Position numbers and translations under genes: made by a program. From Rhizobium sp. NRK18 (GTDB lineage Bacteria > Pseudomonadota > Alphaproteobacteria > Rhizobiales > Rhizobiaceae): a stretch of DNA of 64,000 nucleotides. How positions within the stretch are numbered: position 1 is the first letter of the stretch; the number at the start of each line of letters is the position of its first letter. This document shows, piece by piece, positions 42,234 to 44,512 of the stretch. Below the pieces are notes generated by a model. That model was not told the origin of the DNA. It searched no databases and worked only from the letters and a program-made list of their open reading frames with translations. The stretch is taken from contig NZ_JANFMV010000001.1 in NCBI RefSeq assembly GCF_024385575.1, positions 1,889,681-1,953,680 on the forward strand, written 5' to 3'.

Positions 42234-42665
42234 ATGGCTATCGTCAAAAAGGGCTCGGCGCACTGGAGCGGCGGACTGAAGGACGGCAAGGGCGAGGTGT
42301 CTACCGAGAGCGGCGTGCTCGACAAGCAGCCTTACGGATTTCGCACCCGGTTCGAGGGCCAGCCCGGCACCAATCCGGAAGAACTGATCGGCGCGGCGCA
42401 TGCCGCCTGCTTTACCATGGCGCTGTCGCTGATGCTGGAAGAGGCGGGCTTCAAGGCCGACAGCCTGGAAACCACCGCCAGCGTCTCCCTCGACAAGAAG
42501 GACGACGGCTTCGCCATCACCGGCATCGAACTCGCCCTTTCCGGCACCGTCTCCGGCATGGACGAGGCCAAGTTCAAGGAGATCGCCGACAAGGCCAAGG
42601 CCGGCTGCCCGGTTTCGAAGGCGCTTTCGGCGGTGCCGATCAGCTTGACGACGACGTTCGGGTGA
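42234..42665 (+). CDS. OsmC-family peroxiredoxin
   Basis: A 143-residue OsmC protein. It begins KKGSAHWSGGLKDGKGEVST, as in E. coli OsmC, and has the two catalytic cysteines in AHAACFTMAL (about residue 60) and KAGCPVSKAL (about residue 125), with the Arg-Glu pair in RFEGQPGTNPEEL. It would reduce organic hydroperoxides. AGGAGGAAGCG gives an ideal ribosome site before ATG 42234. The first palindromic repeat starts only 6 bases after its stop codon, so the repeat may serve as its terminator. Confidence 0.92.
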   Translation: MAIVKKGSAHWSGGLKDGKGEVSTESGVLDKQPYGFRTRFEGQPGTNPEELIGAAHAACFTMALSLMLEEAGFKADSLETTASVSLDKKDDGFAITGIELALSGTVSGMDEAKFKEIADKAKAGCPVSKALSAVPISLTTTFG

Positions 42666-42670
42666 ACTTT

Positions 42671-42950
42671 CCTCTCCCCCTGCGGGAGAGGAAGAAAAAT
42701 CGGTGTCTTAGCGCATAGCGCTAAGCGCCAGATTTTTCAGGTGAGGGGGTATGCCTTCCCACGCTGCGCCACCCCCTCTCTTGGAATTTCTAACACTTAG
42801 CTTCGCTAAGATGTTGAAATTCCATTCTCCCCCGCCAAGGGGGAGATGGGCGCCCGCGGCATCCTCGGCGCTTCGCCTCTCCCCTTGCGGGAGAGAATAC
42901 AAAATTATGATCTTAGCTTCGGCTAAGTGATAGATTTTGTTGGTGAGGGG
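42671..42950. repeat. Palindromic repeat cluster 1 (three elements)
   Basis: Three related elements of about 75-79 bases: direct (42671-42749), inverted (42772-42850), direct (42876-42950). Each has a short hairpin (CCTCTCCC...GGGAGAGG type), a long hairpin with conserved inner arms CTTAGC/GCTAAG and a variable outer stem, then GTGAGGGG. Outer stems: GAAAAATC/GATTTTTC (42694-42701 with 42731-42738), GGAATTTC/GAAATTCC (42783-42790 with 42816-42823), ACAAAAT/ATTTTGT (42899-42905 with 42934-42940). The cluster fills the gap between the OsmC gene and the DUF559 gene and recalls the mosaic palindromic elements (RIME/BIME type) known in rhizobia. Confidence 0.9.
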
Positions 42951-43002
42951 ATCAGGTCACAAAACGGGTTGCATTCTGCAAATGCTTTGCAATCATCCCC
43001 AC

Positions 43003-43359
43003 ATGCGCCAGCCCGTTCCGCCCCATCACCGTAATTTTGCCCGCTCCATGCGTGCCGACAGCAAGGCGGCAGAGTCAATGTTGTGGCAGTCACTGAAGAA
43101 CCGCCAGCTGGCCGGGTTTAAGTTCAAACGCCAGGTGCCGCTCGACGGCTATATCCTCGATTTCGTCTGCTTCGAGGCTCGTCTGATCGTCGAGGCAGAT
43201 GGCGGCCAGCATGCCGAAAGCGTCCGGGATGCCAAGCGTGATCGCCATTTTCGCGACGCCGGCTTTCGGGTATTGCGCTTCTGGAACGACGAGATTGAAC
43301 GCAATCTTGTTGATGTCTGCCGGGTGATATTGCTGGAGCTGAAGAATACTGGGGAATGA
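43003..43359 (+). CDS. DUF559 (PD-(D/E)XK / Vsr-like) nuclease-fold protein
   Basis: A 118-residue protein with the DUF559 pattern: AESMLWQSLKNRQLAGFKF (about 20-38), RQVPLDGYILDFVCFEARL (catalytic Asp, about 40-58), IVEADGGQH (Glu-x-Asp, about 59-67) and FRVLRFWNDEI (about 83-93). The D...ExD arrangement is the restriction-endonuclease fold signature. No partner methylase is near. Start ATG 43003 has no ribosome site; an upstream in-frame ATG at 42982 is possible. It is bracketed by two repeat clusters, the second starting 10 bases after its stop, so it looks like cargo carried or kept with the repeats. Its natural substrate is unknown. Confidence 0.78.
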   Translation: MRQPVPPHHRNFARSMRADSKAAESMLWQSLKNRQLAGFKFKRQVPLDGYILDFVCFEARLIVEADGGQHAESVRDAKRDRHFRDAGFRVLRFWNDEIERNLVDVCRVILLELKNTGE

Positions 43360-43368
43360 TGGATCCTA

Positions 43369-43649
43369 CCTCTCCCCTTGCGGGAGAGGAAGAAAAATCA
43401 GCGTCTTAGTGCGTAGCGCTAAGTGCTAGATTTTTCAGGTGAGGGGATATGTCCGACCACCCCCACCGACCCCCTCTCTTGGAATTTCTAACACTTAGCT
43501 TCGCTAAGATGTTGAAATTCCATTCTCCCCCGCCAAGGGGGAGATGGGCACTTGCGGCGCTCTCGACGCTCCACCTCTCCCCTTGCGGGAGAGGACGTGA
43601 TTTCAACGTCTTAGCCAAAGGCTAAGTGTTAGAAATCACTGGTGAGGGG
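43369..43649. repeat. Palindromic repeat cluster 2 (three elements)
   Basis: A second copy of the same direct-inverted-direct cluster: 43369-43446, 43470-43548, 43574-43649. The first two elements keep the outer stems of cluster 1 (GAAAAATC/GATTTTTC and GGAATTTC/GAAATTCC). The third has a different but fully paired stem, GTGATTTC/GAAATCAC (43597-43604 with 43632-43639), in place of ACAAAAT/ATTTTGT. The cluster fills the gap between the DUF559 gene and the convergent unknown gene, ending 2 bases before that gene's stop codon. Confidence 0.9.
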
Positions 43650-43651
43650 AG

Positions 43652-44329
43652 TTACGTTTCCAGTTGTGGGCCCTTAGGTTGGGGGCCGATTGTCGGAAGC
43701 CCGAATTCATTACGTGAAAGTTTGCACTGCAGATCCAGATATTGCATTATAGCATCAACGATAGTTGAGTAAGCTTTTGGATTTTCTGACCAACGGTGAA
43801 GTTGCATGTTTCGAAGATCAAGTATTGCAAAATCATCAACTAAGTCAGATTCTTTGGGCCAATTGCGCTGAACCAAAGTCAAGGCTGCAATCACGATACT
43901 TTTTTGAAGTTTTGGTTCCTTTGTGTTCCATATATGGATTGCTGTTCGACGCCCGCCCATTTCCATAACACAATTCGCTTCAAAGCGGATACGAAAGAAG
44001 CCTCCGGGGCTTTGGATCACGATTGCATCGCAGAAATTGATTTGGCCCGGATTTGCTTTTCGCCATTTTAGAAAGCGGATAATCCCTAGGCGAGTGGAAC
44101 GCCTTTCTCCCTTGTTCTTGATAAGTGATGTAGCAGCAAAAACTTCTGCTGGAGTTTGGGTGCCCGTTGCCAATTTTTGAATTGCACGACGTAAGCTGCG
44201 GTGGCGATCGTATGGCTTGCTGTCTTTGGAGGGCTTATGCCGCTCGCGTATGGTGCTTTTTTGCCTCTTGTCGCTGAGAGATATCAGCTTTAAGAATGCA
44301 GAGAATCCCATCGTCGGTATTTGTGGCAT
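43652..44329 (-). CDS. Protein of unknown function in an AT-rich accessory segment
   Basis: A 225-residue protein that I do not recognise. Residues 1-60 are basic (KRQKSTIRERHKPSKDSKPY), suggesting nucleic-acid or ribosome contact. The rest looks globular, with a beta-rich middle (INFCDAIVIQSPGGFFRIRF) and an amphipathic C-terminal half ending near LQCKLSRNEFGLPT. No membrane segment or catalytic signature is evident. AGAGGA lies 8 bases before ATG 44329, a strong start. The gene is clearly lower in GC than its neighbours, a sign of recent transfer. It lies downstream of the 56-residue protein gene on the same strand and may share its promoter. Confidence 0.7.
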   Translation of the reverse strand: MPQIPTMGFSAFLKLISLSDKRQKSTIRERHKPSKDSKPYDRHRSLRRAIQKLATGTQTPAEVFAATSLIKNKGERRSTRLGIIRFLKWRKANPGQINFCDAIVIQSPGGFFRIRFEANCVMEMGGRRTAIHIWNTKEPKLQKSIVIAALTLVQRNWPKESDLVDDFAILDLRNMQLHRWSENPKAYSTIVDAIMQYLDLQCKLSRNEFGLPTIGPQPKGPQLET

Positions 44330-44512
44330 GCTCAAATCCTCTTGATTACAAAAGTGGATAAGGTGCCAAAGCCCGCTCGACTTGGAGAGCCAACAGCCTA
44401 TAATTCGTTTGCCAACGGTATAGGGACATTAGTCTCTTTGCCTAGCGAAGGCTTTGGCTATTCGCGGTGTGTCGTGGTCGAGTTGGCGCTCGGTCACGGC
44501 ACATGCGAATGA

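Follow-up and report, generated by a model that had tools for sequence, protein, structure and literature searches.

BoxC/PIT/TM repeats were first noticed in E. coli in the 1990s, and Holder et al. (2015) counted 23 copies in E. coli MG1655, five inverted pairs among them, described these as class II intrastrand triplexes and reported the motif from more than 260 genomes (PMC4666352). According to the same paper, triplex formation by the E. coli motif was shown in vitro and was unsupported by footprinting in vivo, TM motifs are associated with instability, PIT motifs lacked promoter and terminator activity, and the genes next to the E. coli copies include no mobility gene and share no common function. 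Its account names neither a partner gene nor a way in which the repeats spread, and the terms "endonuclease" and "DUF" have no occurrence in its main text. A literature search, with most subscription papers outside its scope, found no title or abstract tying DUF559 to these repeats. In other bacteria REP elements are flanked and cut by RAYTs (PMC3733652). For DUF559 itself, a 2005 study placed YcjD in the PD-(D/E)XK superfamily and reported that a YcjD profile detects Vsr (PMC1189080). In Caulobacter, DNA damage in cells without a cytosine methylase has been linked to the DUF559 protein VsrA (PMC12907096). In Legionella pneumophila a segment carrying a transposase and DUF559 is present in three copies, described as hot spots of mutation and recombination (PMC12308824).

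Results

The window locus

The window is the whole stretch of DNA analyzed, 64,000 nucleotides from Rhizobium sp. NRK18 (NZ_JANFMV010000001.1, 1,889,681 to 1,953,680). It contains two clusters of one palindromic element, and the order direct-inverted-direct that the first-pass annotation had read in each cluster was borne out, with six copies at the places given there.

42664..42895, + strand: left arm of a 232-nt direct repeat bracketing the DUF559 gene (repeat family D1)
42671..42750, + strand: element copy 1a, with a hairpin, a long second hairpin and the 3′ tail GGTGAGGGG (R1 92.5 bits)
42771..42846, - strand: element copy 1b, with arm TCTCCCCC and tail AGAGGGGG (R1 94.9 bits)
42876..42952, + strand: element copy 1c (R1 85.8 bits)
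43003..43359, + strand: DUF559 (PF04480) Vsr-like PD-(D/E)XK nuclease gene, 118 aa from ATG 43003 (PF04480 E 6.3e-38)
43362..43593, + strand: right arm of the 232-nt direct repeat, 87% identical to the left (repeat family D1)
43369..43448, + strand: element copy 2a (R1 93.0 bits)
43469..43544, - strand: element copy 2b (R1 94.9 bits)
43574..43651, + strand: element copy 2c (R1 96.0 bits)

All six window copies match R1 by construction, because R1 was built from them. The near-identity that had been claimed for the two clusters is confirmed by the ungapped direct repeat, and the DUF559 gene is the sole gene between them, with 9 bases from its stop codon to cluster 2 where 10 or less had been claimed. 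The core hairpin matched 8 times in the window, at 4 sites on both strands, where shuffled sequence gave 0.25 matches on average and 2 at most, and cluster 1 folded as single-stranded DNA with z = -10.4. An Rfam search gave no match at the gathering score. Directly past cluster 2 is a 227-aa open frame (window 43652-44335, - strand) with no Pfam match at E ≤ 0.001.

An alternative in-frame start of the DUF559 gene, TTG at 42937, lies upstream of the ATG. The protein scored 129.4 bits with PF04480 (gathering score 20.6) and keeps the core D53..E64-x-D66-G-x-Q69-H70, in which D53, E64, D66 and Q69 were invariant and H70 nearly invariant among 40 aligned DUF559 sequences. The Pfam scan at E ≤ 0.001 gave DUF559 and MTES_1575 only, with no match to PF03852 (Vsr), and searches of PADLOC and PHROGs gave weak matches only. 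A close relative of the protein is PDB 3hrl (E 1.9e-24), besides which the family profile had a single match in PDB, the distant sequence relative 3r3p, a "mobile intron protein" (E 0.0042). We take 3r3p to be I-Bth0305I, an EDxHD homing endonuclease. Homing endonucleases drive the mobility of their own reading frames, and I-Bth0305I is described as multi-domain with a long target (PMC3943268), unlike the bare 118-aa domain of the window's protein. Several DUF559 frames (among L063-L122) appear to extend into a flanking hairpin at the N or C terminus, with tails such as PSPQGGGE, so that coding sequence seems to have been recruited from the element.

The source genome (G000) had 50 R1 matches at E ≤ 1 among the 150 scored of 342 first-look candidates. 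Of these matches, 13 are long forms of full length (E ≤ 4e-15), the window's own six among them, and a 14th has E 7.5e-5. There were 73 strict TCTCCC..GGGAGA hairpins and three DUF559 genes only. Each of the three genes has an element within about 300 bp, and the subtype differs from gene to gene: the window's gene has the long 78-nt form, with TCTCCCCC..AGAGGGGG at C1:2706274 and CTTCTCCCC..GGATGAGGGG at C1:1340122.

Elements beside DUF559 genes across genomes

DUF559 was detected in 34 of 61 relatives with 72 matches, from which 60 regions (61 rows) were taken with up to 8 kb of flank on each side; the other 11 rows were weaker or partial matches. The strict hairpin TCTCCC(2-9)GGGAGA was within 600 bp of DUF559 in 42 of these 60 loci. 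Its density was 3.50 per kb at 0-100 bp, 3.17 at 100-200 and 1.27 at 200-300, against 27 hairpins in about 792 kb at 1-8 kb from DUF559 (0.03 per kb), i.e. about 100 times higher beside the gene than in DNA 1-8 kb off. By eye, a related hairpin, CCTCCCC..GGGGAGG, was close to DUF559 in 14 of the 18 loci without a strict hairpin; L110, also among the 18, had a TCTCCC hairpin with a longer loop.

A broader rule asked for a perfect stem of at least 7 with a loop of 2-9 and TCCC in its 5′ arm, no more than 300 bp from DUF559. By this rule, element-type hairpins were beside DUF559 in 57/60 loci of relatives, in 27/29 phylum-wide loci (L123-L151, the best per genome from the 68 of 200 genomes with a match), and in 69/80 named loci. 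The named loci are the top 80 among 171 relatives of a single Pseudomonas protein and are not independent of one another, L160 and L161 sharing 8.3 kb of identical sequence. The controls gave 2/30 for OsmC, one being the window's own OsmC, 1/27 for Vsr, and 2/30 for Y1 transposases, neither canonical; the phylum-wide result had a Fisher p of about 3e-12 against OsmC and against Vsr alike. The gene position was off in 3/27 Vsr and 8/30 Y1 loci because contig ends shorten loci, which affected none of the 29 DUF559 or 30 OsmC loci. The broader rule misses imperfect and T- or C-only arms, and left visible elements unscored at E. coli L289, at L123 and at Pseudanabaena L293. The three control families and the distance profiles led us to reject a general gene-neighbour effect.

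Of the DUF559 loci, 161 had 320 bp or more on either side, and in these, elements were found on both sides in 83, upstream only in 33, downstream only in 29, and on neither side in 16. The tails of the nearest elements were directed at the gene in 163 of 222 orientable cases (p 1.9e-12), and the window-like plan of near-identical clusters on both sides of DUF559 was also recognized by eye at L114, L115 and L219. The first-pass annotation had suggested that the DUF559 protein may be an enzyme tied to this palindrome family, with enrichment of the gene beside the element as the check. That enrichment is extreme against flanking DNA and three control families, and adjacency reaching far beyond one locus supports the suggestion as genome anatomy; for a computational result, the association itself is firmly established.

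Three DUF559 genes outside Pseudomonadota (L293, L291 and L292, from cyanobacteria and Deinococcus) also had hairpins of the same kind at their flanks, the Pseudanabaena hairpins (L293) having pure C/G arms. In Cardiobacterium hominis (L223) a hairpin with a perfect 26-bp stem and the arm and tail motifs of the class lies 107 bp after the DUF559 match.

Copy number and element subtype

Genomes with DUF559 (n=34) had a median of 30.5 strict hairpins vs. 1 in genomes without (n=27; p 5.8e-7; Spearman 0.73). Within the window's family the medians were 60 (n=23) with DUF559 and 1 (n=14) without. The contrast persisted after subtraction of four copies per DUF559 gene (p 7.4e-5), and the pattern read backwards occurred 0-2 times per genome. 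Some genomes had no DUF559 match yet many strict hairpins, i.e. G011 (55), G041 (43), G040 (18), G023 (17) and G025 (12), in which the gene may have been lost or another enzyme may be used; two further genomes without a match, G037 and G036, had 10 and 7.

On a FastTree tree of 168 DUF559 domains, 155 with a labelled nearest element, arm class changed 26 times, compared with a mean of 67.9 in 1000 shuffles (minimum 59). Shuffling within the 12 multi-class genomes gave 37.6 changes on average, and 26 was reached in a proportion of 0.0005 (2000 shuffles). Nuclease clades predict element subtype, even within genomes. Since such co-segregation could be plain linkage, dispersed copies were counted with the adjacent ones removed, among genomes with DUF559 only and with cognates assigned by the strict pattern. 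Median numbers of dispersed T1 copies were 22 in 6 genomes with the cognate gene vs. 0 in 28 without (p 0.0017), and for T2 they were 15 (9 genomes) vs. 0 (25 genomes; p 1.6e-4); the T4 difference, 8.5 (12 genomes) vs. 5.5 (22 genomes), was not significant (p 0.27). Genomes without a strict-pattern cognate could still be rich in copies, with up to 58 of T1 (G033) and 20 of T2 (G046).

The window's 78-nt long form was beside DUF559 in 8/8 members of one clade (R1, E ≤ 1e-6; support 79), a clade that was chosen after the elements were seen; L129 was at first added to the search because the long form was already known there. Its members are L129, L088, L097, L067, L093, L076, L115 and L114, of which L088 is the window's own locus and matches by construction, because R1 was built from the window's copies. 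The search eventually covered all 169 DUF559 loci (including all of L123-L231), and among the other 161 a full-length, high-scoring long form was beside DUF559 in L100 alone, on the left side. L219 had three 52-nt, lower-scoring R1 matches (42.9 bits), two adjoining its DUF559 gene, and L089 had one R1 match about 3.7 kb from its gene. L100 is a mixed locus, with the long form left of DUF559 and a short TTCTCCC form on the right.

The mirror tail

The main subtypes have a tail that complements the 5′ arm base by base without reversal, and T frequently stands in place of a single A. Thus the arm TCTCCCCC is followed by AGAGGGGG and CCTTCTCCC by GGATGAGGG, and in Neisseria CTCTCTCCC is followed by GAGAGAGGG and in Deinococcus CCTCCCCC by GGAGGGGG. 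Among 300 elements with 9-nt arms, a mirror match of at least 8/9 was found in 253 and a direct-repeat match in 167, with permuted arms averaging 6.9/9; when A to T was allowed, the mirror was complete in 204/300 and the direct repeat in 135/300. The alternative that the tail is a direct repeat, or an alternative pairing partner, of the 5′ arm is disfavoured: the mirror was better in 115 of the 300, worse in 12 and equal in 173, and 103 must tie because the arm is its own mirror. Over the 37 distinct arms that are not self-mirrors, the mirror was better than the direct repeat in 24, worse in 3 and equal in 10.

The tail geometry, as read from the sequence, is that of a putative purine-motif triplex (G.G-C, A or T.A-T, third strand antiparallel). 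The motif order is that of class II, with a 5′ pyrimidine block followed by two purine blocks, the 3′ one being reverse-Hoogsteen and antiparallel to the other. The elements also resemble BoxC/PIT/TM repeats in being intergenic and multicopy, and they appear to fit that intrastrand-triplex class, so that the family name of the first-pass annotation, which had turned to mosaic elements of the RIME and ABC/BIME type, needs correcting. They differ in the extra hairpin of the window's copies: Holder et al. searched with loops of 1-6 nt, and here about 45 nt, itself a hairpin, separates the purine arm from the tail, compared with about 2-4 nt in gammaproteobacterial and other-phylum forms. The two also differ in their neighbours, in that no mobility gene is reported for E. 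coli in PMC4666352 and DUF559 recurs here.

Presence, absence and decay of the unit

In Sinorhizobium sp. C101 (L302, 2898-3620) a palindrome pair, DUF559 and a second pair lie between two genes, and the ends of the unit are inverted repeats with 26/27 nt identical. In Shinella PSBB067 (L301) and Rhizobium leguminosarum TP16 (L333) the same two genes are 10 and 17 bases apart with neither a DUF559 gene nor a palindrome, and absence of the unit from these two relatives favours insertion of the whole unit. No target-site duplication was seen by eye at this one clean case. A search with the C101 left flank, a query that includes gene sequence too and matched 228 records at 1087 places in total, returned many Rhizobiaceae plasmid records matching just about 116-129 nt of the palindrome-pair stretch, as would be expected of a MITE-like unit.

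It had earlier been proposed that the window's clusters may be the ends of a composite mobile unit, to be checked at an empty site. As genome anatomy this is supported by the Sinorhizobium unit, absent whole in two relatives. The empty site belongs to a different DUF559 unit, with both pairs and the gene missing. Neither of the two refuting outcomes named in the first-pass annotation, a lack of enrichment or an empty site already carrying both clusters, was observed. No empty site was found at the window's own locus: seven OsmC homologues, L304-L310, of which the best four have 73-76% DNA identity, lie among other neighbours, and none of five other window proteins matched within their 1.5 kb flanks.

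The Sinorhizobium K101 mutY-smc locus was rejected as an empty site, the version in S. meliloti Ak57 being an internal deletion. That deletion spans from the inside of DUF559 to the far hairpin and therefore represents decay; since it reaches the distal hairpin (L297 vs. L294), the hairpin is the deletion end point here. The IS element ISRm16 is close to a palindromic element in the same strain.

Discussion

Patterns detected here are best explained if the locus is a selfish unit resembling a REPtron, which we consider probable: a small Vsr-like PD-(D/E)XK nuclease gene flanked by its cognate BoxC/PIT/TM-type palindromes, in which element and gene would spread through the nuclease and repair. 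Behind this reading are the adjacency, the coupling of copy number, the co-segregation of subtypes, the inward tails and one site of whole-unit absence, all of them observed; we infer the steps of fold recognition, cutting and repair-driven copying. DUF559 would recognize its own folded element, either as a hairpin or triplex on an exposed single strand or as a cruciform, and would nick or cut at or near it. Repair of the break could then insert copies of the element, and at times of the DUF559 gene together with its flanks, at other sites. Element copies that stand alone in the genome would be non-autonomous, MITE-like offspring of the unit. Direct repeats like the two clusters of the window could arise from tandem units or repair and may permit recombination that removes the gene. 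The unit is like REP/RAYT REPtrons (PMC3733652) in that its repeats form a palindromic family, lie on both sides of an enzyme gene and also occur alone elsewhere; the flanking of the enzyme gene by its own repeat subtype is shared as an analogy with a different enzyme. Here the enzyme is a PD-(D/E)XK nuclease, not a Y1 HUH transposase, there is no GTAG tag, and there is a mirror tail. Counted against a mobile unit are the 16/161 DUF559 loci without an element by the rule applied, the T4 result for dispersed copies, the copy-rich genomes that have no DUF559 match or no strict-pattern cognate, the single clean empty site at which no target-site duplication was noticed, and the link of VsrA to DNA damage, which suggests a role in repair (PMC12907096).

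The main rival, which appears unlikely, is that DUF559 is a resident structure-specific or mismatch nuclease guarding the genome from the instability of triplex repeats, with the pairing held by selection and not by mobility. It is consistent with the relationship of DUF559 to Vsr (PMC1189080), with the instability tied to TM motifs (PMC4666352), with the tracking of the gene by element copy number, and with Caulobacter VsrA (CCNA_02930), which shares the DUF559 domain, is tied to the DNA damage response and, in contrast with the unit proposed here, was studied as a mismatch-repair-like endonuclease, with no occurrence of "palindrom" in the main text of PMC12907096. However, a protector acting in trans need not sit within repeats whose tails are aimed at its gene, has no need for gene and repeats to be present or absent as one unit, and does not obviously require a matching element subtype. 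Alternatively, and this we judge to be quite unlikely, the repeats could be hot spots of insertion or recombination moved by something else, with DUF559 genes as passengers. Unstable TM sites (PMC4666352), genomes that have repeats without DUF559, and ISRm16 near an element in S. meliloti Ak57 would all agree with this, but Vsr, OsmC and Y1_Tnp genes are not similarly placed, the median copy number drops to 1 without DUF559, and T1 and T2 are more dispersed with the cognate gene (p 0.0017 and 1.6e-4), though not solely there.

It is very improbable that the palindromes are ordinary regulatory parts of the DUF559 gene, e.g. terminators or attenuators. Hairpins near both gene ends and frames that seem to enter them could be read in that way; the dozens of copies elsewhere in the same genomes are hard to reconcile with it, as are elements on both sides in 83/161 loci and the account of PIT motifs as lacking promoter or terminator activity (PMC4666352). 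Movement of the repeats by RAYT-type Y1 transposases with DUF559 incidental would follow the precedent of REP elements flanked and cut by RAYTs elsewhere (PMC3733652), and is hardly credible here: neither the window's genome nor any of the six other listed genomes of its family had a Y1_Tnp match, TM-type hairpins were beside just 2/30 Y1 genes, neither canonical, and GTAG was within 25 nt of the hairpin foot in just 26/360 elements. For the window's genome, which has no PF01797 match, we reject RAYTs as movers, barring a missed divergent Y1 gene.

Returning to the reading of the locus as a REPtron-like unit, DUF559 is a strong candidate for the spreader of this old and ownerless repeat family. 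Because one small nuclease family recurs beside BoxC/PIT/TM-type repeats, the question of their partner and spread becomes testable, and the finding is worth an experiment. If true, it would give a function to DUF559, a widespread "domain of unknown function", and a second enzyme class for REP-like systems, and would draw attention to a protein by which triplex or hairpin DNA may be recognized. A wider claim is advanced tentatively and with some doubt, namely a new class of mobile system in which a lone PD-(D/E)XK nuclease would read an intrastrand triplex or hairpin and propagate both itself and a population of solo triplex repeats in several phyla, each nuclease lineage being bound to an element subtype, the E. 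coli BoxC/PIT/TM repeats being remnants and YcjD their enzyme.

In E. coli, ycjD is a DUF559 gene between sapF and fabI, with a TM-like motif about 170 bp downstream (L289:2997-3033) and, by eye, an apparently decayed second motif at its stop codon. The ycjD segment was covered to at least 80% in 3333/5426 E. coli genomes. Among the 40 listed of 5385 matching records, 14 match only from query base 746, at fabI and past the motif, and therefore in these 14 ycjD and the motif are absent together. An efflux operon is described as occupying that site in strains without ycjD (PMC12817139).
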